From IMG/VR virus record IMGVR_UViG_3300015242_000032, positions 1 through 37,494 of that record: 37,494 nucleotides of DNA. One strand, written 5' to 3'. The notes beneath the pieces are model-generated. The model had not been told where the DNA came from and did not search any database. It saw only the letters and a program-made list of their open reading frames with translations. The stretch is from a virus. The position numbers and the translations under genes were made by a program. This document shows, piece by piece, positions 1-37,494 of the stretch. Each line of letters begins with the position of its first letter. The first letter of the stretch is position 1.

Positions 1-77
1 CGATCATATCCTGACGGAGCACAGCGACAATCTCACCATCCAGGCGCGCACTGGGACGTCCCTGATGTGCGACGACC
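1..77. repeat. Terminal direct repeat (left copy), sign of a circular molecule
   Basis: The first 77 bases are identical to the last 77 bases of the window. Exactly 77 bases of overlap is what a k=77 assembler leaves on a closed circle, so the unique length is 37,417 bp. A true terminal repeat of a linear virus is possible but less likely, because a gene reads straight through the join. Confidence 0.93.
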
Positions 78-205
78 GCTGCAACGAAGCGCAACGGCTA
101 TTTTTCAGCATGATGCTTGGAGCGCGCGTATCCATGCGCCGCCGTGCCTGGCAGCAAGGGCTGGTAATCGTAAAGCCTGGAAGGATTGTAGGCCCGGCGA
201 ATTGA
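1..205 (+). CDS. C2H2-type zinc-finger protein, C-terminal part (continues from 37251)
   Basis: This is the 3' part of a 123-aa protein that starts at 37251 and crosses the circular join; base 1 is the third base of a GCC codon. This part encodes ADHILTEHSDNLTIQ and ends in an Arg-rich tail and VGPAN, stop TGA at 203-205. The last base of the stop is the first base of the dispersed hairpin at 205-233. The zinc ligands are in the N-terminal part (CERC) and here (H..x5..H in ADHILTEH). Probably a small nucleic-acid-binding or adaptor protein; no named family recognised. Confidence 0.8.
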   Translation, partial: DHILTEHSDNLTIQARTGTSLMCDDRCNEAQRLFFSMMLGARVSMRRRAWQQGLVIVKPGRIVGPAN

Positions 206-233
206 CGGGTCTGGGCTCTACTTGGAGCTCAGC
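205..233 (+). repeat. Dispersed RNA hairpin, copy A
   Basis: Leader ACGGGT, stem CTGGGCTC, loop TACTTG, stem GAGCTCAG, then C. The fourth pair is G-U on the transcribed (+) strand. It directly follows the TGA stop of the zinc-finger gene and lies about 30 nt before the next start codon. One of eight copies in the genome. Confidence 0.85.
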
Positions 234-264
234 GAGAATATTAGGAAAGGCTGGCGTTTCAAAA

Positions 265-477
265 ATGATCATCTTCTGCATTGTTGCAGGCTGGATAGTA
301 TGCGGAGTCATTAGCGCTGGAATAGATCTTGCCGACTTCGAGGGAGACTATCCTCCACAAAGTTATCTTGAACACAGAAATAACTTAGGTTCGGCATACC
401 TATTTGGATGCGGTGGTCCTATCACAATGCTTTTGGGATTCTCCTGTCTGGATTTTGTAAGCACGGATGGCGGTTGA
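265..477 (+). CDS. Small membrane protein (70 aa)
   Basis: Starts MIIFCIVAGWIVCGVISAG, a hydrophobic N-terminal segment. A second apolar stretch (GPITMLLGFSCL) near the C-terminus suggests two membrane passes with an acidic loop (DLADFEGDY) between. An AGGAAAGG element lies upstream but about 14 nt away, so the start is plausible rather than firm. The stop overlaps the start of the ATPase gene by 11 bp, which suggests translational coupling. Function unknown; in this context it could be a virion membrane protein. Confidence 0.6.
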   Translation: MIIFCIVAGWIVCGVISAGIDLADFEGDYPPQSYLEHRNNLGSAYLFGCGGPITMLLGFSCLDFVSTDGG

Positions 478-2596
478 AATGATCTTACTTGGCTTTGAAA
501 TCGGCACCGGACGGCGCGTCGAGATTCCCGAGACGGGACATCTGGCATGGTTCGGGCAGACTCAGCTTTCTGGGAAAACGACGGCGCTCGAAGCCATCGC
601 CTTTCGCGGACACTTAAAAGCCGTGGCGTTCATCACCAAGCAGGGCGAAGGCGGTTTCCTTACCGGGCGAATGATCCAGCCGTATTTTTCGGAGCCCACC
701 AACGACGAAGAGCAACCGCTCTGGCGCTGGGTAAAGTCCATCCTGGAAGCCAGCCAAGGCAGGCGCCTAAATTTTGAAGAATCGTGGATAATTCGGTGCT
801 GTGAAGAACCGAAACAAGCTAAAACGCTCGCCGACGTGCACTCCAATATCAAGGCATTGATTGGCGGCGAAGGCGATTACATCGAAAAAGGCCGCGGTAA
901 AAAGAAAAAGAGAGAATGGAAGTATTCGCGGAAACCTGTCTCCGGCATCAACGCGGGCGTCTACACCAGCCTGAAAGCGTATTTCGATATCGTGATGCCG
1001 CAACTGGCGCGGCTGCCGTACACCAAGAAACTCGATCTAGGCCCCGGCCTAAACGTGATGAACCTGCAAGGCTATGCGATGGAGACGCAGGCACTTGTAA
1101 TCCGCTCCGTCATGGAGTGGGTCTACCAGCACGAAAAGAACGTGCGCGTGATCGTTCCCGAAGCCCAGGACTTCGTGCCGCAGGGAAAAAACTCCCCTGT
1201 AAAAATGGCCTGCGAGAATCTGGTGCGGAAAGCCGGCGCAAACAAGAATTTCATGTGGCTGGATTCGCAGGACATGGCCGCTGTCGATAAATTCGCGTTG
1301 CGCGCGTGCTCGATCGTGGGCATCGGCGTGCAAACCGAAGCCCATGAGATCGACCGCAGCCTGGCCACGATGTTTTCCCCGGCGCTCAAGCCGATCGACG
1401 TGGCGCGCCTGAAAATCGGGGAATTCTTCGTGCGCACGTCCGAGGCTCGCGTTTCAAAGGTGTACGTGCAGCCGGCATGGATGGATAGCGAGATCCACGC
1501 GCAAGCCATCGCCAAAGGACAGGAATCGGTAGCCGGAGCCCGCCAAATGCTGCGAGCGTTCAAGGATTCAAGGAAAGAAGTTCCCCCGCTGCCGCAATTG
1601 CAGCAACTTATGGTTCAGGAGATTCCAGATGGTGAAACGACAGAACAGAAACCCATCGAAGCTGATGAACAGTCTATTTTGCAAACATCCAGACCGGGAC
1701 ATACCGACGATTCGATGCGGGTATCCTCTGCCGTGCCCGTACCACACCGTGATCGTGGACCTGCAATCTCAGACAATTACGGAGCCAGTCGAATGCCAGA
1801 TGTCAGCGGTCACCCGGATACGGCTAAAGAAAATAACGAAAGCGCTGGTTCACGAATCAGAAGTCACGAGTCGCCAGTTACGTCCCCGGAGGACGAATCC
1901 ATGTGGAAAGAAAAATACGAAGCACTCGAAGCCGACCACAAGACGCTGATCGAAGCGCACGATTTCCTAGCCGCCGAAGTCCGCCGCCTGCAAGACGAAA
2001 CGCGAGCTCTAAACGCCGCATTGCTTGGCCAGGACGCCCTAACATCTTCGGCATACGAGTGTATCCGTGAATCGTCTGTGCCATGCGATGAAATTGCGCC
2101 GGACGGAGAACTGTGCGCGCTGGTTTTAGGGCACTCAGGAAAACACAGCAATGTTGGTCCTTTCCGTAACACGCGCTCAGTTCTCAAAACACCAGTCACC
2201 GACAACGGCAAGGATGTCTCGCTCATCCTTGATGAGGACTTACGGCTCGGAAGTATTTACAACTACGTGAAAGCCCGCGCCTCGAAAGACCCCGGCATCC
2301 TGGAACTCCTGACGCGCCAGCCGGAGCTCCGCGTGAAGGTCGAGCGCGTCACAATCCAGGCGCATAGCGATAAGCTGGACGGAAAGATCGCCCTGCTGAT
2401 CAAGGAAGGTTTCTTTGATAAGCCGCGCACTCGTATTGAAATAGGGACTGAGCTTAAACGCCGAGGGGCTCTTGCTCAGTCCACAAACATGAAGATTCTG
2501 TCGCCGTTTCTGGCAAAGCTGACGTCTCAAGGTTTCTTCACTGTCGAAAAAGACGGTCTGCAATCCGTGCCGGGAATGAAAGTGAGCATTGAGTGA
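467..2596 (+). CDS. HerA/FtsK-superfamily ATPase, candidate genome-packaging motor (709 aa)
   Basis: Residues 30-39 (GQTQLSGKTT) are a Walker A loop with K37. Residues 226-236 (VRVIVPEAQDF) fit a Walker B strand with catalytic E232, but Pro stands where Asp is usual. WLDSQDMAAVDK (about 255-266) resembles the sensor region of HerA-type ATPases. This family pumps or translocates DNA and packages genomes in tailless membrane-containing viruses. Unusually the protein has long additions: an acidic linker, a predicted coiled coil at about 475-525, a Cys/His cluster (CDE...LC..LVLGHSGKH), and a C-terminal winged-helix-like domain (about 620-705). Those could anchor the motor or bind a specific DNA or RNA site. 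Start at 467 has no clear Shine-Dalgarno and overlaps the upstream stop; an ATG at 479 is the alternative. A conjugation-like or partition ATPase cannot be excluded. Confidence 0.75.
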   Translation: MAVEMILLGFEIGTGRRVEIPETGHLAWFGQTQLSGKTTALEAIAFRGHLKAVAFITKQGEGGFLTGRMIQPYFSEPTNDEEQPLWRWVKSILEASQGRRLNFEESWIIRCCEEPKQAKTLADVHSNIKALIGGEGDYIEKGRGKKKKREWKYSRKPVSGINAGVYTSLKAYFDIVMPQLARLPYTKKLDLGPGLNVMNLQGYAMETQALVIRSVMEWVYQHEKNVRVIVPEAQDFVPQGKNSPVKMACENLVRKAGANKNFMWLDSQDMAAVDKFALRACSIVGIGVQTEAHEIDRSLATMFSPALKPIDVARLKIGEFFVRTSEARVSKVYVQPAWMDSEIHAQAIAKGQESVAGARQMLRAFKDSRKEVPPLPQLQQLMVQEIPDGETTEQKPIEADEQSILQTSRPGHTDDSMRVSSAVPVPHRDRGPAISDNYGASRMPDVSGHPDTAKENNESAGSRIRSHESPVTSPEDESMWKEKYEALEADHKTLIEAHDFLAAEVRRLQDETRALNAALLGQDALTSSAYECIRESSVPCDEIAPDGELCALVLGHSGKHSNVGPFRNTRSVLKTPVTDNGKDVSLILDEDLRLGSIYNYVKARASKDPGILELLTRQPELRVKVERVTIQAHSDKLDGKIALLIKEGFFDKPRTRIEIGTELKRRGALAQSTNMKILSPFLAKLTSQGFFTVEKDGLQSVPGMKVSIE

Positions 2597-4397: not shown

Positions 4398-5303
4398 ATG
4401 ACGCTTTTCAACAGAAGTCTGCGGCGACCAGCGCTTAGATATCACGGAGGAAAATTTCTGCTCGCTCCACGAATCATTGCGTTGTTCCCGGAGCACAGGA
4501 CGTACGTCGAACCGTTCGGTGGGGCTGCATCGGTTCTGCTCTGCAAACCGCGAAGCTACGCGGAAATCTATAACGATCGATGGGATGATGTGGTCAGAGT
4601 GTTTCGCGTGCTGAGGGATCCGGAGAAAGCGGCGGCGCTCGAGAAGCTACTCCGTCTTACTCCATTCGCCAGGACGGAATTCGAATCGGCGACTCGCGAC
4701 AATATCTCGCAACTTTCCGAACTCGAGATGGTCCGGCTTACGGTGTTCCGGTCTTTCGCCGGATTCGGTTCGGCATCGATAAATGGGAAGTACGCGACCG
4801 GCTTTCGATCTAACTCCAATCGCTCAGGAACCACGCCAGCGCAGGACTGGATGCATTTCCCGGACATGATCAGAGAATTCACAGATCGACTAGCTGGCGT
4901 CGTGATCGAGAATCGGGAAGGGATTGAGGTTATCGAGCAACATGACTGCGGCGATGCACTCCACTACGTCGATCCCCCATACCCGCACTCGACCAGAAAC
5001 ATGCAACGCGGCAACGCTGCCTATGCATGCGAGATGTCGGATGACGGGCATCGCCGGCTTGCGGAGATGCTTCACTCAGTGAAGGGACGCGTTCTGGTGT
5101 CCGGCTATCCCTGTGATCTCTATGATCGTGAACTCTTTCCGGACTGGATTCGCCTCACCATGGATTCTCTGGCGGACGGCGCTAGTCCTCGCACGGAGGT
5201 TCTCTGGGCGAACTATCAACCCAGATTGCACGAGCAGCTCGAACTGAAAATTAATTCACCAGAAAAATCCGCCGAAGCCGCGAGCGAAGGCGGTAAACTT
5301 TAG
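4398..5303 (+). CDS. DNA adenine-N6 methyltransferase, D12 (Dam) class (301 aa)
   Basis: The class motifs are in the right order: RYHGGK (14-19) at the N-terminus, VEPFGGAAS (37-45, AdoMet-binding motif I) and DPPY (192-195, catalytic motif IV). Length fits Dam-like enzymes. It transfers a methyl group from S-adenosylmethionine to adenine N6 in duplex DNA. No restriction endonuclease lies beside it, so it is an orphan methylase, as often carried by phages to evade host restriction or mark replication timing. The recognition site (perhaps GATC) cannot be read from the sequence. Start ATG 4398 has a weak ribosome site. Confidence 0.92.
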   Translation: MTLFNRSLRRPALRYHGGKFLLAPRIIALFPEHRTYVEPFGGAASVLLCKPRSYAEIYNDRWDDVVRVFRVLRDPEKAAALEKLLRLTPFARTEFESATRDNISQLSELEMVRLTVFRSFAGFGSASINGKYATGFRSNSNRSGTTPAQDWMHFPDMIREFTDRLAGVVIENREGIEVIEQHDCGDALHYVDPPYPHSTRNMQRGNAAYACEMSDDGHRRLAEMLHSVKGRVLVSGYPCDLYDRELFPDWIRLTMDSLADGASPRTEVLWANYQPRLHEQLELKINSPEKSAEAASEGGKL

Positions 5304-5859: not shown

Positions 5860-5933
5860 TGGTAGCGGGACCGGGAGTCGAACCCGGACCTGTGGAGTAT
5901 GAGCCCACCGGAGTACCATTTTCCTATCCCGCG
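5860..5933 (-). tRNA. tRNA-Met (CAU), initiator-like
   Basis: A 74-nt cloverleaf including an encoded CCA end. Acceptor CGCGGGA pairs with TCCCGCT at positions 2-7 only, leaving a C1-U72 mismatch. D-arm has GGA/TCC with A14 and GG at 18-19; anticodon stem GTGGG/TCCAC; loop CTCATAC with anticodon CAT (5899-5901); T-arm CCGGG/CCCGG with loop TTCGACT. An unpaired 1-72, a purine-11/pyrimidine-24 pair and GGG in the anticodon stem are features of bacterial initiator tRNA. It lies 6 bp after one small minus-strand gene and 17 bp before the next, so it is probably cut out of the late mRNA. Confidence 0.93.
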
Positions 5934-6904: not shown

Positions 6905-7507
6905 TCACAGTATCGATCTAAATCTATTTCCATCAATGATGCAAAGTATTCGACGATCGGGACAGTCTCCAGAGTGATCAATGGTTACTTGGAACGGTTG
7001 CTGCTGGTAGATTAAGACTCCTTCGACTTCCGGAGAAAAGAACTTCCCTGGCGGTAGGATCTGATCCGCAGGAATAAAAGAGTGTCTTGTTTGGTTGCTG
7101 AATCTGTTTATAAGCGTTAATTTCTGGTCTAAAGACATCTTATCCCAATCTTCTGGTCTCGTCAGAATCATAGGATCGACCACGACAGAGAGCGGCGATT
7201 TCCAATAAATCCTTGCGCTAACAGAAAATTCAAGGGTAGATGTCCAATAGATGGCATCGTGGATAGGAACTAGATTTCCGTTGGATTCAAGAAAGGCACA
7301 TCTAATTCCCGTCACAAGAAATCTGTCAGGTGCTTCCAACACGTTTGGCAGAAACAAATTAGTGTCACGATACGTTTTACGCTGGCCGCTTTTCGAACTT
7401 ATTTGTCCGATCGGCGTAGAGAAAAGCGATAAACGTTCTTTTCCAAGAGGCTCAGAATCCATGAGAATGTTGGAAACTACATCCATGAGCCCATCAGCTA
7501 TCGGCAC
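6905..7507 (-). CDS. Capsid-type protein, paralogue of the candidate major capsid protein (200 aa)
   Basis: Three segments match the protein at 23011-23772 in order: LSLFSTP with TLFSVP; LEAPDRFLVTGI with LQAPERMLVRGI; and GVLIYQQQPFQVTID with GILIAQQQAFRVEID. Between them are beta-rich segments. The two are therefore probably one fold, used for two shell parts (for example main capsomer and vertex). GTG at 7507 is chosen because AAAGGGAG sits 6 nt before it; a GTG at 7528 would put that site inside the gene. Its place among lysis genes, 15 kb from its paralogue, is odd. Confidence 0.6.
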   Translation of the reverse strand: MPIADGLMDVVSNILMDSEPLGKERLSLFSTPIGQISSKSGQRKTYRDTNLFLPNVLEAPDRFLVTGIRCAFLESNGNLVPIHDAIYWTSTLEFSVSARIYWKSPLSVVVDPMILTRPEDWDKMSLDQKLTLINRFSNQTRHSFIPADQILPPGKFFSPEVEGVLIYQQQPFQVTIDHSGDCPDRRILCIIDGNRFRSIL

Positions 7508-7524
7508 GTGTTTTCTCCCTTTCC

Positions 7525-8004
7525 TCACGAACTAAATTCGTCAATCGCCAATTGGTCCCACACCGCCTGGACTCCACCGACGCGGCAAAGTTCCTGAATC
7601 TCCGGAGTCGGCTCCGTAGGAATTTCCGCGAGCTCTAGGTGCGGAAGATCGTGCCAGGATTTACCGTCGCGCAGGCCGTGCGCCGGAGCCAGAGCCACGA
7701 TTCGCTGCCAGGAAGGATGCGTAGCGTTCCAATCCGCGCGATTCAAGATGGGGTCTACGGGAGAAACGTCCACGGCGCACCCGATCACGTGATTTGATTG
7801 GAAACCTTTCGCGTGCGTCACTTTCGTGCCGGGGACCGTGCGCCCGATGGCGTAAAGGTTGTCCTGTTCCGCCGGGGTGCGCAACGCTGTGTCGATTTCG
7901 ATGATGATGCCTTCCGATTCCAGCGCGTCCACCAGATTGTTGATTCGCCGCGCAAGTTCCGGATGCACTTGCCGAAGCCGCTCGATCGAGAGATTGGAGA
8001 GCAT
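7525..8004 (-). CDS. M15-family peptidoglycan peptidase, candidate endolysin (159 aa)
   Basis: The family pattern is clear: FR-type segment LRTPAEQDNLYAIGRT, then SNHVIGCAVDV with zinc ligands H72 and D79, then SWHDLPHLE with the third ligand H122. Such enzymes (VanY/L-alanyl-D-glutamate peptidases) cut the peptide stems of peptidoglycan. No signal peptide or membrane segment is present, so a holin would be needed for release. A GAGGAT site lies 4-5 nt before the start. It is followed by the spanin-like pair after one capsid-type gene. Confidence 0.88.
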   Translation of the reverse strand: MLSNLSIERLRQVHPELARRINNLVDALESEGIIIEIDTALRTPAEQDNLYAIGRTVPGTKVTHAKGFQSNHVIGCAVDVSPVDPILNRADWNATHPSWQRIVALAPAHGLRDGKSWHDLPHLELAEIPTEPTPEIQELCRVGGVQAVWDQLAIDEFSS

Positions 8005-8189: not shown

Positions 8190-8393
8190 AAGTCACTAAA
8201 TTATCTGGAAAACACGCGAAGGCCGGAACGGCGGTAAAAGCTATCTTGAACGGGACATCCCGCGCCAGGCCCACGGTCCCACGTACGGAACGCTCCTGCT
8301 TTTATCACATCGCGGCTGTAACGCAAAAGGAAATATTCGGTTCGGGCTTGGCTGAGCTCCAAGTAGAGCCCAGACCCGGTCCCCGGCTGAAGA
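8190..8393 (-). other. Gap of about 200 bp with no assignable gene
   Basis: Holds hairpin copy B at 8351-8380. Short frames occur on the minus strand, for example 8026-8274 beginning MGLARDVPFKIAFTAVPAFA, but none has a ribosome site and they overlap the zinc-ribbon frame. It may contain decayed coding sequence. Confidence 0.4.
8351..8380 (-). repeat. Dispersed RNA hairpin, copy B
   Basis: Read on the minus strand: ACCGGGT leader (one extra base), stem CTGGGCTC, loop TACTTG, stem GAGCTCAG. The fourth pair is G-U in the sense strand. It follows the transglycosylase stop by about 14 nt. Confidence 0.8.
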
Positions 8394-8948
8394 TTAGTCG
8401 AAACTGTCAACAAAGAGGAACCCTACGAATCCAATGGCGGCGAGCACCAGCCATCCCGTGAGCGATATTCCGGAGCCGCTTCCCGCCTGGACGGGCGTTC
8501 CGGGGATCGAAAAGCTGGCCGCGGGAGTCCCGGCGGAAACACTGTATTCCGTGGAGACATTCGCCAGAATCGACGCTACGTAGCTCTGCGTCTCGCTAGG
8601 CGCGTGGGAGAGCCAATTCGAGCCATAGTGCGCCACGGCAGCCGAAACGGCGTCAGGATGCCAATTGTAGGCCGCCAGAGCTTTTCCTACGTCCCCGGCG
8701 AACTCGGAAAGCAGTTGCGCCAGCAGCATCACCCCGCCCTGGATATTTTGTATTGGATCGTGGGGATCGACGCCCAGGCTGGCCGCCGTCGCGGGCATGA
8801 GCTGCATAATGCCGATCGCGCCGGCAGGACTCACGGCGGATTGGTTTAATCCGGATTCGTGCATCCCCACCTCGAGCGCCAGTCGCGGATCGACGCCGTA
8901 GGACGATGCCGTGTTGACGATCTGCGTCGAGATTTCCTGACTAGTCAT
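8394..8948 (-). CDS. Membrane-anchored lytic transglycosylase (SLT-like, 184 aa)
   Basis: The N-terminal domain has the SLT pattern: catalytic E31 in HESGLNQSAVSPAGA, GIMQLMPAT (46-54) and AYNW (93-96). It would cleave the glycan strands of peptidoglycan. A Gly/Ser linker leads to one membrane helix at the very C-terminus (GWLVLAAIGFVGFLFVDSFD), so the enzyme is tail-anchored with no signal peptide. Membrane-bound transglycosylases are virion parts in internal-membrane viruses such as PRD1 (P7), where they open the wall at entry. Start ATG 8948 overlaps the preceding stop by 8 bp. Confidence 0.88.
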   Translation of the reverse strand: MTSQEISTQIVNTASSYGVDPRLALEVGMHESGLNQSAVSPAGAIGIMQLMPATAASLGVDPHDPIQNIQGGVMLLAQLLSEFAGDVGKALAAYNWHPDAVSAAVAHYGSNWLSHAPSETQSYVASILANVSTEYSVSAGTPAASFSIPGTPVQAGSGSGISLTGWLVLAAIGFVGFLFVDSFD

Positions 8949-9216: not shown

Positions 9217-9580
9217 TGAAGTTTCGCGGATAGTTCTTCAATCTTCGTCTGCCTTCTGTGGTAACTCTCAGTTGTATATCGGCATTATCCATTTGGATTG
9301 TGTGAGGGAAAATTACTTCAATCATTCCTTCACGCCGCATTTTCTCTAAATTGACTAAATGTACGGTTTTTCCAACTAACACTTTCAAGGAAGGAAGATT
9401 GGTGTCTAACGTGCCGGTTTTTGGACTTGCCAGTCGAACGGCAAACAAAGCGTACGCCGTGTAATCAGACCGGTTGAAATCTGCAATGAACGATTCAAGC
9501 ATTTCATCGGTCAAACGAGAAAGAATGAGGTTCAAACTTCCCGAGCAATCAAGTACCCGGATTGCAGTGCATAGGTCCAT
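9203..9580 (-). CDS. Unknown protein with winged-helix-like features (125 aa)
   Basis: MDLCTAIRVLDCSGSLNLIL is followed by helices and a C-terminal part MRREGMIEVIFPHT...QLRVTTEGRRRLKNYP that resembles a winged helix ending in a beta hairpin (TTEGRRRL is typical of such folds). Start 9580 is chosen for GGAGGAAG 6 nt upstream and because it shares one base with the previous TGA. It could be a DNA-binding regulator within the late unit; inference only. Confidence 0.6.
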   Translation of the reverse strand: MDLCTAIRVLDCSGSLNLILSRLTDEMLESFIADFNRSDYTAYALFAVRLASPKTGTLDTNLPSLKVLVGKTVHLVNLEKMRREGMIEVIFPHTIQMDNADIQLRVTTEGRRRLKNYPRNFNDFS

Positions 9581-24339: not shown

Positions 24340-24424
24340 AGTTCCTCCTTCCCCGCCTGAGTTTTCGGTTCGAACGCGACGGCGGCGAGCGTCGTACGTC
24401 GGATTGACAAGGCGGACGTGCATG

Positions 24425-27973: not shown

Positions 27974-28179
27974 TGAGGTAGGCCCTCCACGGCTGCAATA
28001 CACATCGGTTTCATTTCTTCTGACCAGCTAAAATGAGTCTTTCCATGCCTACGAGCGTGAGTCACGATAAACTTAGAGATATCTTTTCTTGCGATATCAG
28101 ATTGAAGATTAGAAACCTTCGCCTGCACGCCGCATTCATCGCAACGTACTTCAACCGGAATAGTTTTAACCCCGAACAT
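27955..28179 (-). CDS. Small CxxC zinc-type protein (74 aa)
   Basis: MFGVKTIPVEVRCDECGVQA contains one CxxC; the rest is basic with His (THARRHGKTHFSWS) and one more Cys (KPMCIAA). Start 28179 is chosen because the longer frame runs through the preceding gene. It overlaps the next gene by 19 bp. Function unknown. Confidence 0.55.
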   Translation of the reverse strand: MFGVKTIPVEVRCDECGVQAKVSNLQSDIARKDISKFIVTHARRHGKTHFSWSEEMKPMCIAAVEGLPQWLTRN

Positions 28180-28181: not shown

Positions 28182-28517
28182 TCAGCGCCGCCTCCGTCCG
28201 CCGAAGGCTTTCAGCAGCAAAAATCCGGCACCGATCGCAAAAATTGAATTCGGCATTCCGGGAACGAACGTGGAACCGCCGAGCCATGTAAGCGCCTGGT
28301 CCCAAAGGCTGGTGCCCGTTGGGACAGTGGCGGTGCTGATCGAAAATTGTCCTCCCGGCCCCATCGAAATACTGGTGAGTGGGGCGTCCCCTAAGCCTCT
28401 GAAGTTCGGGTGCAACCCAGCACTGCTACGCGTGGACATCGCAGCATAAGATCCGAGCCCCCTCAGACTCGGATGAAGCCCGGAAGTGTTTCGCGTGTTG
28501 TTTGACGCGTAAGCCAT
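28182..28517 (-). CDS. Tail-anchored membrane protein with duplicated GLHPSLRGLG motif (111 aa)
   Basis: MAYASNNTRNTSGLHPSLRG then a second copy, STRSSAGLHPNFRGLG, about 20 residues later. A Gly-rich stretch (SMGPGGQFSIS) leads to a Trp-containing part and a membrane helix (IFAIGAGFLLLKAFGG) with RRRR end. The ATG shares a base with the preceding TAA (TAATG). The repeated motif also occurs in the proteins at 28517 and, in part, 29443. Confidence 0.65.
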   Translation of the reverse strand: MAYASNNTRNTSGLHPSLRGLGSYAAMSTRSSAGLHPNFRGLGDAPLTSISMGPGGQFSISTATVPTGTSLWDQALTWLGGSTFVPGMPNSIFAIGAGFLLLKAFGGRRRR

Positions 28518-29443
28518 TATGCGAAACTCCAAACGAGAGCTGCTCCGCCGAGCAGCCATACCCACGCGGGAATCGGCGAACTTGGCGCTGAGGATTGACG
28601 CAGCGCATCGGCTTGCGAGAGCAAAGCGTTGGCTGTCGTGGTATCTCCCGACGCTTGTGCAGCGCTGGCTTGCTGTGTGAGTTGCGCGATCTGAGTTTGC
28701 GTCGCGGTGTTTTGCGCCGCCGTTGCGGACGCCGCGTTCTCGGCCATCGCCGCGTACCGCGCTTTCCAATAAATCACCATCGCTTTCAGGATCACGCCCA
28801 TTTCGCAGTTGCTATTGCAGAATGGATGCGTATTGATGGCCGCGCCGCCGTGCGCCTGAAACTGCGAATAAATTTCGTCGAGGCTGGCCGCGGCGTCGGA
28901 CGGAAGAGCCTGCCCGTTCTGCACGGCTTGCGTGATTACGCTGAACGCATTGTTGACGGCGGGAAGCGCGGCGCAGCCGAACGTCAAATCGCGCTTTACT
29001 GCTTGCGCGTGATGCTGAAAAATCGCGCTGATCAATCCGACGAGAGCGCCGACGCCTGCGATCATCCAACCAATGACGGGTACGGCCGTAGCGGGAATAA
29101 GATGCGCCATAGAAAGAATTCCGGTGGTCGCTGCGGTAGTCGATAGACCGATGCCGCTGGCCGTCGAAAGCAGATTCATCGGCGGCGCCGTTTGTCCGGC
29201 GCACTGCGCGGAATAGCTTCCGATGTTGAACTGCGCGGCCGCAATCTGCGATTCCGCGCTGCTGAGCCATGCCGGATTCTGAAAATCTTTTGGATTGAGG
29301 TTCAGTCCCGCGCTTTGCTGGATGGCTTGCTGCAAGGCGTCATGCGGAGTGATGGCCACGGAAGAATCTCCGAGGAATCCCATCCCTCTTAAACTGGGGT
29401 GAAGTCCGGAATTGTTTCGCGTGGATAGAGCGGCGTAGGCCAT
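28517..29443 (-). CDS. Membrane protein with GLHPSLRGMG N-terminus (308 aa)
   Basis: MAYAALSTRNNSGLHPSLRG then helical Ala/Gln-rich sequence; a hydrophobic region in the middle (IPATAVPVIGWMIAGVGALV and GLISAIF) could insert in a membrane; CNSNCEMG is a Cys pair. A long helical region (AQLTQQASAAQASGDTTTAN) precedes a last membrane helix (PAWVWLLGGAALVWSF). Start 29443 shares a base with the preceding TAA. Viral membrane or membrane-remodelling protein is the guess from context. Confidence 0.62.
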   Translation of the reverse strand: MAYAALSTRNNSGLHPSLRGMGFLGDSSVAITPHDALQQAIQQSAGLNLNPKDFQNPAWLSSAESQIAAAQFNIGSYSAQCAGQTAPPMNLLSTASGIGLSTTAATTGILSMAHLIPATAVPVIGWMIAGVGALVGLISAIFQHHAQAVKRDLTFGCAALPAVNNAFSVITQAVQNGQALPSDAAASLDEIYSQFQAHGGAAINTHPFCNSNCEMGVILKAMVIYWKARYAAMAENAASATAAQNTATQTQIAQLTQQASAAQASGDTTTANALLSQADALRQSSAPSSPIPAWVWLLGGAALVWSFA

Positions 29444-30264
29444 TACGATAGCGCCCACCAGAGAAGCCCCACGATTCCGAGTCCAATTAAAAGTTCTTTT
29501 TCCGTGGCAGAAGACATCAGCCCAGACTGCGGAGGCGAAACCATCATCGCGCCGCCCGGACCCATCGCCGGACCTACGACGTTCTGAACCTGCTGGCCGC
29601 TGACGGATCGCAGGATCACGCCCGCATCCTGAAAACCGATTTGTAAATCGCTCATCAGCCCGCCCAGGCCGCGCACGCCGACGCGGGACATTCCGGCCAT
29701 CGTTCCATCAGCGGGATAGTTTCCGTGCGATCCGTCTACCGTTGACCACCATTCGCGTTTGAAAAAATGTGCAGGAGCGGAACCGAATCCAGCGCCCGGG
29801 CGCGCGGCATCCAGCGGATACCAATTCCCGTCCTGCAACACTTCCACGTAGATGTGAGAAAAACTGTCAGGATGTTGGGGATCTGCGGCAATGGTAATAA
29901 ATCGAGTTTCGAAACCGATGGTTCCCAGTAGCGCCGGCAGCATGTTTGAATTGATGTCGTCGCAGTCTCCCGCCATCAAATCAAGTAATTCAGTAGTGGG
30001 GCGAACGGCTTCCTTCGTGACCGGATCGTTCACAAAATAAAAGTTTGCGAGAATCCAATTGTATATCGCGCGGATTTGTCCCCAGGAATCGTACGGTTTC
30101 ACCCCGGCGTTGCGCACGATGTCGATCGCCGTACGGTTGACGTAGGAATCTTTCCAGGCGTCATCAATCAGGCTGCGCAGTTTCCAAATCGTTTGCTCCG
30201 TGCCTGCATCGCCGCCAAGAAGCGGAACGGAATAAATTGCGCCGGTAGTCGCGTGAATTCCCAC
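29443..30264 (-). CDS. Membrane-anchored transglutaminase-like cysteine protease (273 aa)
   Basis: The catalytic triad of the transglutaminase-like fold is visible: C101 in MAGDCDDIN, H137 in FSHIYVEV, D152 in WYPLDAA. The C-terminal part contains MSRVGVRGLGG (close to the RGLG motif of its neighbours), a PPQ-rich link and a final membrane helix (LLIGLGIVGLLWWALS). It is the first gene of the late unit. It could process virion proteins or cut cell-wall peptides at entry. GTG start 30264 has no ribosome site, but no better start exists in frame. Confidence 0.8.
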   Translation of the reverse strand: MGIHATTGAIYSVPLLGGDAGTEQTIWKLRSLIDDAWKDSYVNRTAIDIVRNAGVKPYDSWGQIRAIYNWILANFYFVNDPVTKEAVRPTTELLDLMAGDCDDINSNMLPALLGTIGFETRFITIAADPQHPDSFSHIYVEVLQDGNWYPLDAARPGAGFGSAPAHFFKREWWSTVDGSHGNYPADGTMAGMSRVGVRGLGGLMSDLQIGFQDAGVILRSVSGQQVQNVVGPAMGPGGAMMVSPPQSGLMSSATEKELLIGLGIVGLLWWALS

Positions 30265-30386: not shown

Positions 30387-30421
30387 AGGTACGCTTGGCA
30401 ATAGAAATGAGGGCTTTCTTT

Positions 30422-31714
30422 ATGACCACGATGACGCAACCAGCACCAGGAATCCGAATCAAGAAAACTACCTACACCGAAACCCTTCCCACCGATGAAC
30501 AAGTTGACGGCGCGCAGCCATCGCGCTTTTACGCAGATACTTGGGAAAATGTCGTCAATAAACTAACGCAGCCGCAATGGGCCGAGCATTTGGTCCGTGT
30601 GTACCGCGCAGGCGAAAAGTGGGAACAGGGCGCTGCGCCGGTGGATAACACTTTTAGTGGCCCATTCAACGAGGAAGATATTCGCAAGCGATTCGGCGGT
30701 GGGCGATTTTTACTTTGGATGCTGGGGCCGCCCAAGAAACATACGCTTGTAGCAAAATGGCAGGTAGAGCTCGAGGGAGTGCCGATTATCAACAGTATTC
30801 CGACCAATGGACACGGCCCGCAAGATGGCACCAATTCAGTAGCTCTGGAAGCCATGCGTATGTACGCCAATCCAGAATTCATGCGCATGCAAATGCAGAT
30901 GATGATGACGGCGGCGACCGAAGCCATGACCTTGATTAAGAGTCAGATTCCCCAGGCTCAAGACCCTCTCGCCACATTGCGCAACGCAAAAGAGATTCTA
31001 GGCGGCGGTTCGGCGGAACACGGCTTGCTGGATACTCTGCGCGTGTTGAAAGAGCTTGGGCTTGTGGGCTCGCCGGAGAAAAAAGGGATTGATGAAATTC
31101 TTTCCCTGATCACTACATTGAAAACTTCCGGGCTGATTACCAGCGGCGTGCCGAAGGCGGACCTGGCTTCCACGTTCGCATCGAATCTCCCGATGCTGGC
31201 CGACCGTCTGGTTACCGGCTTCCAGGAGAGTCGATTGAAAACGGAAGCGGAAGAGCGCGTACTGCGGATGCAGCGCGGAGAAATACACCCCGGCGATCCC
31301 AACGTCATCACCATGCCGGGGAACCAGCCTCCCCCTGCCGCGGCACCGGCGGCCGCAGCGCAGCAATCTCTCGACCCGCAGATGGTGCAGGCGATTTTGA
31401 TCCGCGATCGCGTCGAGCGACTCGTCGCGGGGATTCGCCAGCCGAATTCCACCGGCGAGGATATGTACGATTATCTCTTGAACGCGTGGCCAGAAGTTCT
31501 CGCGGAGCTTTCCAAATTCAGCAAGGAACAATTGCTGATCTTTTTCAAGTCTCGCGAAATGCAGATGCAGCAACTCGGTTGCGATCTGCTGGCCGAAGTG
31601 GGCGACGATCCGCGCCTGCCGAAGATGATCGAGGAATTTCTAAAAATCGCCAAAGAGAATCCCGCGACGTCCGAGCCCCCGGCATCCACGGTTGCAACCG
31701 CCGGAGCGATTTGA
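30422..31714 (+). CDS. Unknown 430-aa protein, first gene of the plus unit
   Basis: MTTMTQPAPGIRIKKTTYTE then an N-terminal domain with RFYADTWENVVNKLTQPQW and IRKRFGGGRFLLWMLGPP. Then come a Met-rich helical stretch (RMQMQMMMTAATEAM), a domain of helices, a Pro/Ala linker (QPPPAAAPAAAA) and a C-terminal helical domain (QMVQAILIRDRVERL...). The FGGGRF segment recalls unnamed phage proteins. Start 30422 follows GAGGG by 9 nt. It might bind DNA or be a scaffold, but no family is claimed. Confidence 0.6.
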   Translation: MTTMTQPAPGIRIKKTTYTETLPTDEQVDGAQPSRFYADTWENVVNKLTQPQWAEHLVRVYRAGEKWEQGAAPVDNTFSGPFNEEDIRKRFGGGRFLLWMLGPPKKHTLVAKWQVELEGVPIINSIPTNGHGPQDGTNSVALEAMRMYANPEFMRMQMQMMMTAATEAMTLIKSQIPQAQDPLATLRNAKEILGGGSAEHGLLDTLRVLKELGLVGSPEKKGIDEILSLITTLKTSGLITSGVPKADLASTFASNLPMLADRLVTGFQESRLKTEAEERVLRMQRGEIHPGDPNVITMPGNQPPPAAAPAAAAQQSLDPQMVQAILIRDRVERLVAGIRQPNSTGEDMYDYLLNAWPEVLAELSKFSKEQLLIFFKSREMQMQQLGCDLLAEVGDDPRLPKMIEEFLKIAKENPATSEPPASTVATAGAI

Positions 31715-32172: not shown

Positions 32173-32247
32173 TTGCCAGGCATAGGGCTCGTTTCCCCGC
32201 TCTAATCTTCCTTTTCCCCCAACTGCGGAATGCCTGGCGCCTGGCAA
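32173..32247 (+). promoter_or_regulatory. Leader with two exclusive stems at the helicase start
   Basis: TTGCCAGGCAT (32173-32183) can pair with ATGCCTGGC (32230-32238) or, through TTGCCAGG, with CCTGGCAA (32240-32247), whose last base is the A of the start codon. No Shine-Dalgarno is present. Confidence 0.5.
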
Positions 32248-33689
32248 TGGCACAAAATAATTCACATCTCCCCGCCCTGCCGCAAAATATCGAAGCGGAA
32301 CGGTCTGTGCTTGGCGCGATTTTATTATCGAACGCCGCCTACGACATCGTGCGCGAGCGCGTGGATGCCGATGATTTTTTCCACAAGCCTCACGCGAAAA
32401 TGTTTCAGGCCATGCGCGCCATGCGCGAAGCCGATAAGGCTATCGACCTCGTAACCCTCAAGGATTTTCTGGAACTGCACCGCCAAATCGATAACGCCGG
32501 CGGCGTCGCCTACATTTCGCAGATGATCGACGGCGTGCCGAGCGTGACGAACGTGGCGCACTACGCAGACATCGTTCACGAAAAGGCCCGTCTGCGAACC
32601 ATCATCAAGACTCTGGAAGCCCTGCAAACGAAAGCCATCGAAGGTTCGTATTCCTCGGATGCCATCGCCGGGGACCTGGATAAACTCGGAAGAGAACAGG
32701 CCGCCATCGTCCACACCAACGGCAACGCGCACATCGGACACGACCTGATTGATTTTCTGAAAATAGATTTCCCGCAGCCCGAGCATCTGGTGGAAGGCAT
32801 GATTCCCAAAGGCGACAAAGTGATGATCGTCGCCATGCCGCACCGCATGAAAAGCTGGTTCACGACGGGGCTGGCGCTGGCGGCCACGCGCGCCGGCACG
32901 GTGCTTGGCAAGCTGGAAGTTCCCAAGCCGGTGCGCACCATCCTGGTGCAAATCGAGGATTCTCCCGGCGAAGTGCAAAAGCGTTTGCGCGCATTCCTCG
33001 CCACCGATCAATTCACGAATTGCGATCCCGCCAACCTGCGCATCATAGACCGCACGGAGTTTTCGGAATTCAGCGCCGAATGGTGCGAGCGTTTCGTGCG
33101 CCAGGCCGACGAATGGAAAGCGGACCTGATTATCTTCGACGTGTTGCGTAAATTCTTCGTGAACCACGGAGACATCAACAGTTCCACGGACACAGCCGTG
33201 TTTCTGGAAATTATCGACAAGATCCGCTACACCACGGGCGCCGCCGTGATGCTGGTGCATCACGAAAACCGCAAGGAAGCCGAACTCATGTGGGCGTCGG
33301 CGGGCTCCTACAATCTACCGGGCTGGGCGACGTCGGTCATCCAGTTCAAGAAAAAGACGGAAGAGAAGGGCGTAACGCGCGTGGAAATCGAAGTGGACAA
33401 TAAATTCGCGAATTCGCTCGAGCCGATGCGCATGGTCCTGGACTTCAGTTCGTCGAATCCCTTGCAACTCGAACTGCTGGAAGAGGGCACGGGATTCAGC
33501 GAAGCGATCGACGCGCTCGGCCCGTACTGGACGCTGCGCGACCTGATGGAAGTATTGCAGGCCACGCGCAGCAGCTCCAACCGCCGGCTGAAAAAGTGGA
33601 TTGAGATGGGTAAGGTCGAGAAACTCTCAGGCGGCAAAAAAGGCCGCGGCGGCCAGGCCACGTACCAGGAACTAAAGAGCACGCTCTAA
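32247..33689 (+). CDS. Replicative helicase: DnaB-type N-domain joined to a RepA/RecA-like ATPase (480 aa)
   Basis: Residues about 8-115 match the DnaB N-terminal domain (LPQNIEAERSVLGAILLSN, DDFF..PHAKMF). The ATPase core is of the RepA/AAA_25 sort: VAMPHRMKSWFTT (195-207) stands for Walker A with K202-S203 kept but Met where Gly is normal; ADLIIFD (292-298) is Walker B; VMLVHHENR (334-342) is the sensor strand. The C-terminal 55 residues look like a winged helix (DLMEVLQATRSSSNRRLKKW). It would unwind DNA 5'-3' at the fork or load at the adjacent origin. ATG 32247 has no ribosome site. Confidence 0.85.
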   Translation: MAQNNSHLPALPQNIEAERSVLGAILLSNAAYDIVRERVDADDFFHKPHAKMFQAMRAMREADKAIDLVTLKDFLELHRQIDNAGGVAYISQMIDGVPSVTNVAHYADIVHEKARLRTIIKTLEALQTKAIEGSYSSDAIAGDLDKLGREQAAIVHTNGNAHIGHDLIDFLKIDFPQPEHLVEGMIPKGDKVMIVAMPHRMKSWFTTGLALAATRAGTVLGKLEVPKPVRTILVQIEDSPGEVQKRLRAFLATDQFTNCDPANLRIIDRTEFSEFSAEWCERFVRQADEWKADLIIFDVLRKFFVNHGDINSSTDTAVFLEIIDKIRYTTGAAVMLVHHENRKEAELMWASAGSYNLPGWATSVIQFKKKTEEKGVTRVEIEVDNKFANSLEPMRMVLDFSSSNPLQLELLEEGTGFSEAIDALGPYWTLRDLMEVLQATRSSSNRRLKKWIEMGKVEKLSGGKKGRGGQATYQELKSTL

Positions 33690-33716: not shown

Positions 33717-33992
33717 AAATGTCCATGCCCTCTGCCTGACACCTACACTCCACTGTAACCTTTCTACCCTTCCTTCCTCGCGCGCGCGCGTAGAGGGGGT
33801 GGGGCGTGGACATTTGACACCTAATGCCAGTGAATACATACACTTAAAATGTCCAAAGGGGGGTGGACAGGTAGTGGACATTTAGAAGTGGTTTAGTATC
33901 TAAGCTATAGAGCCGAAACGACATTTTAAATGTCCACCCCCCTTTGGACATTTTAAACCGCTCGTTCTATTGCCTTTAAGTGTCAAATGTCC
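33717..33992. other. Probable replication origin: AAATGTCC iterons and 26-bp inverted repeat
   Basis: Seven good copies of AAATGTCC(A), in both orientations, lie at 33717, 33807, 33847, 33875, 33928, 33945 and 33985, plus a partial TGGACA at 33864. A perfect 26-bp inverted repeat has arms 33844-33869 and 33931-33956 with 61 bp between. GACATTTTAAATGTC (33920-33934) is a further near-palindrome. A (CG)6 run is at 33779-33790 and AT-rich sequence follows to 34100. No gene fits here. Its place after the helicase and before a small regulator suggests an origin or its control site. Confidence 0.65.
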
Positions 33993-34622: not shown

Positions 34623-35099
34623 ATGCGAGCCCCGCAAAGTATTCGTTCACGATTCCAGAACTGGCTTTGGCGTCAATTCCTGCTATCTGCGCGCGCGATC
34701 GTGTGGGCCGCGGACGAATGGATTCACAGTCAAGAAGTGAAGCTACGAACTACGGGTCTGGGCTCTACTTTAAGCCCAGCGATAACGGGTCTGGGCTGTA
34801 CTTGCAGCCCAGCCATAAAGGAGAACGATGAAAGCTACGATCGAGAGTACGAACAAGCTGGTGATCGTGAACGGGCTGCAATTTCGCGTTTGGGAAGGCG
34901 TGAGCGAGAAAGGGACGAAGTTTGTGGCGCTGATGAACCGGATCATCAGTTCTATTCCGGACGACCACAAAGCGTTGGTTATCGAGACGATGGCCGAGCA
35001 CCGCAAACCCGATCCGACGACCGCCACCGCGCTCGAACAACTCGGCGTATAAAGATCACCGCCGCGGACTTTGACCGAAAATACGCTGGTGTGGCATGA
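34623..35099 (+). CDS. Frame with strong start that reads through two hairpins (158 aa)
   Basis: AGGGAGG stands 4 nt before ATG 34623. The first 43 residues (MRAPQSIRSRFQNWLWRQFL, then LSARAIVWAADEWIHS) form an amphipathic basic/apolar helix. The frame then passes through hairpin copies G and H in phase (TTGLGSTLSP, ITGLGCTCSP) and on, out of frame with the gene at 34828, to TGA 35099 that overlaps the next ATG in ATGA. The N-terminal part is probably real; the rest has shadow-like composition (many Arg/Asp/Gly). The true end may have been lost when hairpins arrived. Confidence 0.4.
   Translation: MRAPQSIRSRFQNWLWRQFLLSARAIVWAADEWIHSQEVKLRTTGLGSTLSPAITGLGCTCSPAIKENDESYDREYEQAGDRERAAISRLGRRERERDEVCGADEPDHQFYSGRPQSVGYRDDGRAPQTRSDDRHRARTTRRIKITAADFDRKYAGVA
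34752..34780 (+). repeat. Dispersed RNA hairpin, copy G
   Basis: ACGGGT, stem CTGGGCTC, loop TACTTT, stem AAGCCCAG; the closing pair is lost (C against A), leaving 7 pairs. First of a tandem pair, 4 nt before copy H. Confidence 0.82.
34785..34813 (+). repeat. Dispersed RNA hairpin, copy H (compensatory change)
   Basis: ACGGGT, stem CTGGGCTG, loop TACTTG, stem CAGCCCAG: the same C-G to G-C swap as copy D. Ends 14 nt before ATG 34828 and just before its AAAGGAG site. Confidence 0.87.
34828..35052 (+). CDS. Unknown small protein (74 aa)
   Basis: MKATIESTNKLVIVNGLQFR then VWEGVSEKGTKFVALMNRII; ends TATALEQLGV. AAAGGAGAACG before the ATG is a strong ribosome site, right after hairpin H. The N-terminal part looks like a small beta-hairpin plus helices. 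In the other frame just after its stop, KITAADFDRKYAGVA reads like a natural continuation, so a frameshift is possible. Function unknown. Confidence 0.65.
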   Translation: MKATIESTNKLVIVNGLQFRVWEGVSEKGTKFVALMNRIISSIPDDHKALVIETMAEHRKPDPTTATALEQLGV

Positions 35100-35299
35100 C
35101 GCACGCCGGCCGAAACCTGCTGTACCGCGTCGAGACGCGCTGCGCCGAGGAATACGGCCGCGCGCTCGCCCGCGTGGAGTTGGATAGCGTCAAGCCTGGA
35201 AATCCCTTCGAGTTCATCGCCTGGCATCACGCAATTTATATCGTGCATCGCCTGCGATGGGGACGTTTTGTCAATAAACCTTTAGGAGGCGGGGCTTAG
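35096..35299 (+). CDS. Unknown small protein (67 aa)
   Basis: MTHAGRNLLYRVETRCAEEY then mixed helix/strand ending FVNKPLGGGA. The start lies in an ATGA overlap with the frame above. Its last codons (GGA GGC GGG GCT) are already part of the first pentamer array. No family recognised. Confidence 0.5.
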   Translation: MTHAGRNLLYRVETRCAEEYGRALARVELDSVKPGNPFEFIAWHHAIYIVHRLRWGRFVNKPLGGGA

Positions 35300-35350
35300 C
35301 ATGGCTAGGCATGGTTAGGCGTGGCATGGCAGGGCAGGGCAGGGCGAGGA
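35286..35350 (+). repeat. Pentamer array 1, 13 units of NNGGC
   Basis: From 35286 the sequence divides into 5-base units with consensus NNGGC (GAGGC GGGGC TTAGC ATGGC and so on) in strict register up to 35350. It starts in the end of the gene at 35096 and stops 19 bp before the next ATG. Confidence 0.88.
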
Positions 35351-35369
35351 AAATTGAAAGGATCACCAC

Positions 35370-35897
35370 ATGAACAGAGGAATTGAGATCGAGATCACCG
35401 GAATCAGTCCCATTTTGATGCATGCTTTTCCGCTTGTGCCCGTCGAGGCGATTGACAAGAAAACACCAGAAGAGCAGGCGGAAATAGCCGCTTACCGCGA
35501 TCCCAACACACGTCAACTCTACATTCCAGCGCAAGCGATGCAACGAGCATTGGTACGCTCGGCCACGTTTTCCAAAGGCAAAGGCCGCGCCACGTTGCAG
35601 AAAATAGTTGCCGCCTGCGTCATGGTCGGCCCGGAACGCGCATCGCTCGGCGTTGAGGACTACGTGATTGATAAACGCGCCGTGGTCATTCCAGCCACGC
35701 AAGGACGCGTCGTGCGTTACAGGCCGCGGCTGGACGTGTGGAAGACTACTTTTAGCGTGGCTTACGATCCTGACCTGTTGACCGACGTGCAATTGCGCCG
35801 CGTCGTCGACGATGCAGGAAGCCGTGTCGGATTGCTGGATTATCGGCCTGAACGAAATGGCCCGTTCGGACGTTTTTTCGTTACTCGATGGAAGTAA
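35370..35897 (+). CDS. Conserved phage-type protein ending in a GPFGRF motif (175 aa)
   Basis: MNRGIEIEITGISPILMHAF, then RQLYIPAQAMQRALVRSA, SKGKGRATLQKIVAACVMVG and at the end VGLLDYRPERNGPFGRFFVT. From memory, this set of motifs belongs to a common family of phage proteins without an assigned role, often near replication or recombination genes. The opening TGISPILMH resembles the first strand of RAMP/Cas7-like folds, which is only a suggestion. AAAGGATC precedes the ATG. It is flanked on both sides by the pentamer arrays. Confidence 0.65.
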   Translation: MNRGIEIEITGISPILMHAFPLVPVEAIDKKTPEEQAEIAAYRDPNTRQLYIPAQAMQRALVRSATFSKGKGRATLQKIVAACVMVGPERASLGVEDYVIDKRAVVIPATQGRVVRYRPRLDVWKTTFSVAYDPDLLTDVQLRRVVDDAGSRVGLLDYRPERNGPFGRFFVTRWK

Positions 35898-35905
35898 TAG
35901 ATTTA

Positions 35906-36030
35906 AGGGCGTGGCATGGCAAGGTGAGGCCGGGTTAGGCGAGGCTAGGCATGGCGATGCGAGGTAGGGCACGGCAGGGCCTGGCGAGGCAGGCCATGGC
36001 GAGGTTAGGCAGTGTAGGGCAAGGCAGGGA
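35906..36030 (+). repeat. Pentamer array 2, 25 units of NNGGC
   Basis: Runs in strict 5-base register from AGGGC (35906) to AGGGA (36030). Most units fit NNGGC; variants are mainly NNGGT. The G-rich strand is the coding strand. It fills the gap between the GPFGRF-protein gene and the next gene at 36066. Confidence 0.9.
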
Positions 36031-36527: not shown

Positions 36528-36665
36528 ATGACCAAAAATAGGGACGGTCTTCTACCTTATATTTTGACGGGAGTTGTGATGGCGTTTTTCTGGCTCGTCA
36601 TCTTTGGATTAGTTGGTCCGATTCTAGTGCATATTTGGAAGTGGATGGATCGGGTGTGGCCATGA
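36528..36665 (+). CDS. Very small membrane protein (45 aa)
   Basis: MTKNRDGLLPYILTGVVMAF then FWLVIFGLVGPILVHIW forms one long or two short membrane helices, ending DRVWP. The stop overlaps the next ATG in ATGA (36662-36665). Translation is probably coupled to the preceding gene, 3 bp away. Confidence 0.6.
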   Translation: MTKNRDGLLPYILTGVVMAFFWLVIFGLVGPILVHIWKWMDRVWP

Positions 36666-37120
36666 GCCAAAATAGTGATCAACAGTTGAGAAACAATGTG
36701 ACACGCTTAATATCAAGCGTCGGATTCTCACAAGGATCTGAGGATGAGCGATTAAAATTGCTCCTTGAATTCCTCTCCAAATCACGTTTGGCGATTGAAG
36801 CGGCTGCGATTGTGAGAGCTAAACAGGTCATCATTGACATCGAATCAACTGGGTGGACGGCCACTTATCATCAAATCAAAATGAGAATAGATAACCTTCT
36901 CACCCCCGAACACCAGGACGCACTGGCCGCCTACGTCCACGATCAAATTACGATACACGATGCTCTGAAATTACATTTTTCCAACCGAGAGATCATGTTC
37001 GCGCCGATGTGGAAATTAGTGAAAATCTGGCGCAAGAACGTGAAGAATAGCACACGTTTGGAAGATTGTGCTTTCTCGTACTGCGCCGATGAACTCGAAT
37101 CCGTACTGAAAGGTAAGTGA
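36662..37120 (+). CDS. Unknown helical protein (152 aa)
   Basis: MSQNSDQQLRNNVTRLISSV starts an all-helical protein with central segments EFLSKSRLAIEAAAIVRAK and DALAAYVHDQITIHDALKL, and a single Cys near the end. The ATGA overlap fixes the start. No membrane segment and no family recognised. Confidence 0.58.
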   Translation: MSQNSDQQLRNNVTRLISSVGFSQGSEDERLKLLLEFLSKSRLAIEAAAIVRAKQVIIDIESTGWTATYHQIKMRIDNLLTPEHQDALAAYVHDQITIHDALKLHFSNREIMFAPMWKLVKIWRKNVKNSTRLEDCAFSYCADELESVLKGK

Positions 37121-37123
37121 CCG

Positions 37124-37264
37124 ATGCAAGCGCCTATACGCTGCAAGAGATCGAAATGCACGTGCGTCTCGAATGAGAAGCCGCCATACCATCAGCGAGA
37201 GTGCCCGGTTTATGTGGCATGGCTCAAAACCAAGAAAGCGAGTGCTGAACATGAACTCCACTGA
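37124..37264 (+). CDS. Very small Cys/His protein (46 aa)
   Basis: MQAPIRCKRSKCTCVSNEKP then YHQRECPVYVAW has four Cys and two His, so may hold one zinc. AAAGG lies about 10 nt before the ATG. Its end overlaps the next gene by 14 bp. Too short to assign. Confidence 0.55.
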   Translation: MQAPIRCKRSKCTCVSNEKPPYHQRECPVYVAWLKTKKASAEHELH

Positions 37265-37494
37265 GCCCGTCTGGATTCGCGACGTGCTAGCCGCAGAGCT
37301 CGAAGTGTCCGACCAATCGAACGCCGTGCAAATCGTGGCGCAAATCTGCGAAGGCGAAAAATCCTACTGCGAGCGTTGCGGCGCGGATTTCGACATGTGG
37401 CCCACAAAAACGTGGGCCGATCATATCCTGACGGAGCACAGCGACAATCTCACCATCCAGGCGCGCACTGGGACGTCCCTGATGTGCGACGACC
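37251..37494 (+). CDS. C2H2-type zinc-finger protein, N-terminal part (continues at 1-205)
   Basis: MNSTEPVWIRDVLAAELEVS then AVQIVAQICEGEKSYCERCG. The finger is CxxC (CERC), then H-x5-H in WADHILTEH. The frame runs without a break over the circular join to TGA 203-205, giving 123 aa. This is independent evidence that the molecule is circular. Role unknown. Confidence 0.8.
   Translation, partial: MNSTEPVWIRDVLAAELEVSDQSNAVQIVAQICEGEKSYCERCGADFDMWPTKTWADHILTEHSDNLTIQARTGTSLMCDD
37418..37494. repeat. Terminal direct repeat (right copy)
   Basis: Exact copy of 1-77; see that entry. Confidence 0.93.

Follow-up and report, generated by a model that had tools for sequence, protein, structure and literature searches.

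Genome of a probable tailless virus of Acidobacteriota and its lineage, distantly related to Salisaeta icosahedral phage 1

What kind of virus is encoded by the 37,494-nt stretch analysed here (the window), which corresponds to one complete virus record, IMGVR_UViG_3300015242_000032? A sequence-only reading had proposed a tailless, membrane-containing virus of bacteria, representing a new lineage of about three times the usual genome size. The analyses below indicate that the window is very probably the complete circular dsDNA genome of a tailless Acidobacteriota virus, from a lineage distantly related to SSIP-1 (Salisaeta icosahedral phage 1), and that the main inference of that reading is probably right.

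Genome organization and search for tailed-phage genes

The circular ends proposed earlier were recovered as an exact terminal repeat. Contigs of related genomes likewise end in repeats (97-169 bp), at breakpoints other than that of the window, suggesting circular or permuted molecules. The window carries about 45-50 genes in two opposed blocks which, from their gene content, may be called early and late. The rightward block runs from 30395 through the origin to about 5600 and includes a DnaB-like helicase, a HerA-like ATPase and a Dam-type methyltransferase. The leftward block (about 30264 down to 6100) groups membrane-anchored proteins, a shell cluster, fibre-like proteins, a transglycosylase and an endolysin. 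Proteins are named below by their lowest coordinate.

1-77 = 37418-37494: exact 77-bp terminal repeat of the circular contig
467-2596, plus strand: HerA/FtsK-superfamily ATPase with C-terminal extension
4398-5303, plus strand: Dam-type adenine methyltransferase (Pfam MethyltransfD12, 5.6e-17)
7525-8004, minus strand: M15-type endolysin/peptidase (Pfam Peptidase_M15_4, 8.2e-8; PHROG endolysin, 5e-21)
9580-9789, minus strand: 69-aa protein, in 27 of 27 genomes tested
30395-31714, plus strand: 439-aa conserved protein, first of the opposite gene block, near-universal in related genomes
32247-33689, plus strand: DnaB-like replicative helicase (Pfam DnaB, 2.5e-30)

A tRNA-Met gene (CAT, 5860-5933) lies in the short gap separating both blocks. 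Runs of GGCNN pentamers flank gene 35370-35897 (span 35288-36029) and may be iterons or an origin; a 26-bp perfect inverted repeat with a 61-nt spacer (33844-33956) directly follows the helicase gene.

Profile libraries (PHROGs, Pfam, NCBIfam) recognise only DnaB, the SLT transglycosylase, the D12 methyltransferase, the M15 peptidase, besides a few uncharacterised families. Terminase, portal, HK97 capsid and tail genes found no match in these libraries, in agreement with the earlier remark that terminase, portal and tail genes were not seen. The all-gene PHROG overview (50 genes) gives the best 25 of 51 families; single-protein rescans covered most of the larger genes and not every small one. 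All "tail" labels obtained with PHROGs in single-protein scans came from the SLT domain of the transglycosylase. A run that recovered the phrog_2 terminase from 11 other contigs detected it in none of six relatives. Judged from gene content, the particle would almost certainly lack a tail.

The shell module and its kinship with SSIP-1

About 28 related IMG/VR contigs were retrieved with the ATPase and protein 23011 as queries; the majority are circular, with lengths of 32.5-38.8 kb. They belong to a group that had not been recognised before, with at least 30 genomes, most of them metagenomic, and with SSIP-1 as its sole known cultured relative. Protein 23011 shows 83-91% identity in the window's clade, compared with about 60% for the ATPase, and about 40% identity to a second clade; in a third clade (G070) the family is still clear (E 7.6e-67). 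The G070 capsid protein as sole query matched only itself. An alignment of the transglutaminase-like proteins that included SSIP-1 was too divergent for pattern search, and a narrower one used as pattern query retrieved no new genomes. According to iterative profiles, the near-universal families are 23011, 22440, 21795, 20921, 19568, 23848, 24425, 25437, 28517, the transglutaminase-like protein, 30395 and 9580, while the helicase family had no match in part of clade 2. Gene order is broadly kept (transglutaminase ... 25437, 24425, 23848, 23011, 22440, 21795, 20921, 19568).

6905-7528, minus strand: divergent 23011 paralogue, limited to a few genomes (an iterative profile search converges on the same family)
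20921-21652, minus strand: conserved shell-cluster protein with a core of about 158 aa
21795-22295, minus strand: predicted jelly-roll shell protein, probably a penton or minor capsid protein
22440-22925, minus strand: paralogue of 21795 (hhalign 100% with the 21795 family), weakly similar to SSIP-1 gp47
23011-23772, minus strand: probable major capsid protein, 253 residues, the most conserved protein of the lineage as judged from identity across clades
23848-24423, minus strand: small hydrophobic/basic conserved module protein
24425-25102, minus strand: conserved module protein
25437-26183, minus strand: conserved module protein

Five shell candidates had been put forward. Four of them (23011, 22440, 21795 and 20921) are kept in all or nearly all related genomes and would have capsid roles, whereas 6905 is a paralogue of 23011 and not an independent shell gene. 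Further divergent copies of 23011 are present in some genomes of clade 1 (G009 24358-24711, G010 28190-29149, G008 14702-15322).

The jelly-roll fold suggested for these candidates was recovered by structure prediction for 21795 and not for 23011. With 31 related sequences (22440 paralogues included), AF2 gave for 21795 a mostly beta model with pLDDT 74, exceeding 85 over much of the core. VIA-align ranks chain b of HHIV-2 (6h82) first among solved structures, with Z 9.2 and rmsd 4.0 over 116 residues (chain residues 39-173). The first 40 residues of the HHIV-2 penton protein are disordered (PMC6414509), and chain b, with its fitting residue range, is probably that protein. Enzymes with jelly-roll domains tie with HHIV-2 (PHM and the furin P domain score about equally), so that the match is not specific to viruses; an SPV1 chain reaches Z 7.3, IBDV VP2 is among the Foldseek matches, and a Foldseek search of BFVD returned only unnamed or unrelated-looking proteins. 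The model thus supports a predicted jelly roll in 21795, no specific virus family being indicated. For 23011, AF2 with 8 mostly similar sequences reached a pLDDT of 31 and the fold was not predicted.

SSIP-1 is described in the literature as a cultured tailless salt-lake phage with an internal membrane, T=49 geometry and a circular dsDNA of about 44 kb (PMC6260650, PMC5332951, PMC4958249, PMC6356626). Publications also place it among viruses whose capsids have two single-barrel proteins (PMC5332951, PMC4958249, PMC6356626) and state that its genome hardly resembles GenBank entries (PMC6356626). Among 50,697 INPHARED phage records, the sole match to the transglutaminase-like protein of the window is SSIP-1 gp34 (26% identity, E 6e-4), annotated as a structural protein. 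The match of the family profile to gp34 is much stronger (E 7.5e-23; 8.1e-25 with a deeper profile; hhalign 98.8% over 202 columns), and both proteins end in a membrane helix. The transglycosylase profile picks SSIP-1 gp54, which is transglycosylase-like with a hydrophobic C-terminus, and SSIP-1 has several tail-anchored proteins. Among its 57 proteins, the virion protein gp47 is matched by the profiles of 22440 (E 6.4e-5) and 21795 (E 3.5e-5), with hhalign at just 9-12%. Both genomes are circular dsDNA of similar size (32.5-38.8 kb in the window lineage).

Other features separate them. Protein 23011 has no sequence-level similarity to gp45 or gp46, which we take to be the SSIP-1 capsid pair; the kinship therefore concerns the SSIP-1 structural module and not a shared family. 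The predicted packaging ATPase of SSIP-1, gp40, and the HerA-like ATPase of the window are distinct P-loop proteins, the profile of the latter giving no significant match to gp40 (E 0.17), and SSIP-1 also has an integrase and a sigma factor. The genomes studied here are best called a new lineage related to SSIP-1. Their kind was already known, and they do not represent the first large tailless membrane virus. The sequence-only reading is probably right in proposing a lineage of this sort; its size is not new since SSIP-1, with 43.8 kb of circular dsDNA, is larger.

The vertical single beta-barrel viruses HHIV-2, HCIV-1 (Sphaerolipoviridae) and P23-77 resemble the lineage in having membrane-anchored proteins beneath the shell, in addition to the structural match between 21795 and the HHIV-2 protein. 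They differ by their genomes, linear and about 30 kb (Sphaerolipoviridae) or smaller, and by their two defined capsid proteins. No sequence relation to the window lineage was found.

Membrane-anchored proteins, spikes and the HerA-type ATPase

All six C-terminal membrane helices reported earlier were retrieved by hydropathy (best 15-residue values 1.6-2.6), and three of the six proteins carry an arginine run after the helix.

8394-8948, minus strand: lytic transglycosylase with C-terminal membrane helix (Pfam SLT, 6.8e-22), comparable to SSIP-1 gp54
26397-27215, minus strand: protein with C-terminal membrane helix and basic tail
27206-28003, minus strand: protein ending in a membrane helix and a basic tail; the actual start is probably near 27835
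28182-28769, minus strand: protein ending in a membrane helix and a basic tail; the actual start lies downstream
28517-29458, minus strand: conserved module protein with an internal hydrophobic segment and a C-terminal membrane helix
29443-30264, minus strand: transglutaminase-like protein with C-terminal membrane helix, homologue of the SSIP-1 virion protein gp34

The two wall enzymes named by the sequence-only reading were confirmed, the transglycosylase by its SLT domain and helix, the transglutaminase-like protein through its family: five of the six members scanned, a set that includes SSIP-1 gp34, match Transglut_core in Pfam (best 1.4e-15), the window's own protein having no Pfam match. 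A membrane helix terminates 12.5% of the genes in the lineage and 14.5% in SSIP-1, compared with 4.2% in only five unrelated control contigs, three of which (G034, G039, G047) have terminase matches. The excess of the lineage over the controls gives a Fisher p of 1.5e-4, computed on homologous and hence non-independent lineage genes. A 19-residue hydropathy window missed short tail anchors; the 15-residue window was used with a threshold set after seeing the sequences. The particle probably contains a membrane.

The leftward block also encodes a series of long, putatively exported proteins.

10945-14589, minus strand: fibre/spike-like protein with predicted Sec signal peptide
14590-17076, minus strand: fibre/spike-like protein with predicted signal peptide and a 300-nt repeated N-terminal domain
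17101-18447, minus strand: fibre/spike-like protein with predicted signal peptide and the same repeated domain
18381-19550, minus strand: fibre/spike-like protein with predicted signal peptide and the same repeated domain
19568-20872, minus strand: conserved protein adjoining the shell cluster; a Sec signal peptide (AxA^QF) is predicted in most of its family

The 300-nt repeat (16630-16929, 17926-18225 and 19104-19403; 68-83% identical) corresponds to the duplicated N-terminal domain of three successive fibre genes. By a simple rule, a Sec signal peptide is predicted in 21 of 32 members of the 19568 family, and the window's own copy fails the rule. For 19568, PHROGs also gave a transcription regulator (E 0.0017), a match discounted as it covers the basic N-terminus alone. 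The predicted signal peptides (AxA^QF) of the 19568 family and the long fibres might mean that receptor-binding spikes are exported, which is not normally expected of a virus assembling in the cytoplasm. Virions might then be completed at the cell envelope, with exported spikes added outside the cytoplasm, as in an enveloped or budding bacterial dsDNA virus instead of an internal-membrane particle released by lysis; we regard this as rather unlikely.

The HerA/FtsK ATPase noticed earlier is indeed present. It carries the Walker A motif GQTQLSGKTT, and its family profile reaches HerA 4d2i with E 5.9e-7; matches to DUF87/FtsK are weak, and the STIV2 packaging ATPase B204 appears at E 0.53 only. 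The gene accompanies 23011 in all related virus contigs except one, a fragment, and lies outside the shell block. The same family extends to over 60 further virus contigs and to about 20 contigs of MAGs spread over many phyla, and a large terminase was found in at least 11 of 44 ATPase-bearing contigs. When the genes of two of them, G034 and G047, are pooled, terminase, portal, head and tail proteins all appear, and in G047 the ATPase has a RecT-like gene as neighbour; these tailed phages share the ATPase family at about 40-45% identity and differ from the window by those very genes. The ATPase was not found near the provirus G331 described below. Its use as a diagnostic of tailless viruses does not hold, and the idea that its presence proves packaging was dropped, since the family occurs in terminase-bearing tailed phages and was not found in the surroundings of G331. 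Packaging, a role thus unproven, remains the simplest one because no terminase was found, and we consider it moderately likely; a function in replication or recombination is a serious alternative. Other conserved P-loop proteins were sought with a single pattern, which also misses the GQTQxSGKT form of the ATPase itself, and none was widespread.

A glycosyltransferase-like protein with a DSD motif (L027, G008 11734-12705) has homologues in nine other clade-1 genomes, and none was seen in the window. In G002 and G008 its C-terminal Cys/His stretch, LQPCxGxAPQDxxPCALxxGHxGxHSxVGP, resembles one inside the window's ATPase. A second clade-1 "ATPase" set proved to be this protein, drawn in by the shared short stretch.

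Hosts, proviruses and alternative readings

One member, G074, is circular (34.7 kb, 169-bp end repeat) and is an ATPase-bearing contig of the Terriglobia MAG SRVP_15. The shell module was also located inside two long Acidobacteriota contigs, G071 (336 kb) and G331 (150 kb), with cellular genes on the flanks by inspection; these copies are apparent proviruses and some members seem to be temperate. In G331, the HerA-type ATPase and the helicase were not found within the 58.7 kb examined. ParB-like genes adjoin two integrated members. A peptide-pattern search of GTDB contigs with 23011 retrieved no relatives, while whole-genome profile searches did: the 23011 profile matched 2 of 396 Acidobacteriota genomes. 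Of 398 genomes from the phylum to which G073 (a MAG labelled Steroidobacter) belongs, a single one matched, weakly and with part of the module (G699). This comparison makes Acidobacteriota the likely main hosts. A literature search, mostly without subscription journals, found no paper joining Acidobacteriota with single jelly-roll viruses.

The window and its distant relative G074 also share a 22-nt hairpin, (ACGGGT)CTGGGCT[C/G]TACTTG[G/C]AGCCCAG, with an 8-bp stem, a fixed TACTTG loop and a compensatory C-G/G-C exchange atop the stem. Both genomes contain eight copies.

211-232 (plus), 8352-8373 (minus), 9805-9826 (minus), 10369-10390 (minus), 20895-20916 (minus), 27853-27874 (minus), 34758-34779 (plus), 34791-34812 (plus): hairpin copies in the window

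On the gene map all copies are sense to the local genes, and most lie 9-48 nt upstream of a possible start codon. The hairpin matches no Rfam family and was not found in the sister genomes or in 395 other Acidobacteriota genomes; the G074 MAG holds two extra copies elsewhere. It looks like an intercistronic RNA control element common to two viruses with a shared host type.

The proposal of a tailless membrane virus thus draws on the lack of matches to hallmark genes, the predicted jelly roll of 21795 and the kinship to SSIP-1 through gp34; its membrane is deduced, and the fold of its main shell protein was not predicted. The window could instead belong to a tailed phage (Caudoviricetes) whose hallmark genes are too divergent to be recognised, the shell-like proteins being head decorations or fibres and the ATPase an accessory. 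Tailed phages do possess the same ATPase family, and long fibre-like proteins are present here. However, terminase, portal and head genes are readily found in those ATPase-bearing tailed phages and searches of the window turned up no hallmark gene, the shell module ties in with gp34, a virion protein of SSIP-1, and tail-anchored wall enzymes differ from tail-tip enzymes, so that this reading is distinctly unlikely. Still less credible, and highly improbable, is a plasmid-like element, or a satellite, that has retained a capsid module and depends on another virus. The ParB-like genes beside integrated members, and G331 with neither ATPase nor helicase in the stretch examined, would fit such an element, whereas the window encodes complete sets of replication, lysis, shell and fibre genes and a steady size is kept in many circular contigs.

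A last alternative bears on the shell only and is compatible with a tailless membrane virus. Protein 23011 could be one compact double jelly-roll capsid protein as in PRD1/PM2-like viruses. It is a single dominant and highly conserved protein of 253 residues, close in size to PM2 P2; 22440 and 21795 would then be penton and minor proteins, in keeping with a top VIA-align match that is probably a penton. Against this, the AF2 prediction of 23011 yielded no fold (pLDDT 31), and the nearest isolate, SSIP-1, is placed among two-single-barrel viruses in three publications (PMC5332951, PMC4958249, PMC6356626). This arrangement is possible and doubtful.

For the tailless membrane virus that we favour, the following cycle may be proposed. 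Once the DNA has entered the host, it would be replicated by products of the rightward block (helicase, methyltransferase, HerA ATPase). The leftward late genes would build the shell from 23011 and the jelly-roll proteins 22440 and 21795, one of them probably a vertex protein, over a membrane bearing the tail-anchored proteins. The transglycosylase and the transglutaminase-like protein, both membrane-anchored, may breach the cell wall or act in virion processing, either on entry or during maturation, and the HerA-type ATPase would most likely package the DNA. Some relatives would sit as integrated proviruses.

A HerA-type ATPase alone is a poor marker of tailless viruses. SSIP-1 is now tied to at least 30 genomes, and Acidobacteriota, a phylum abundant in soil, hold members in both circular and integrated form. 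Structural work can start from the defined shell module of the lineage, and its candidate proviruses could be induced.
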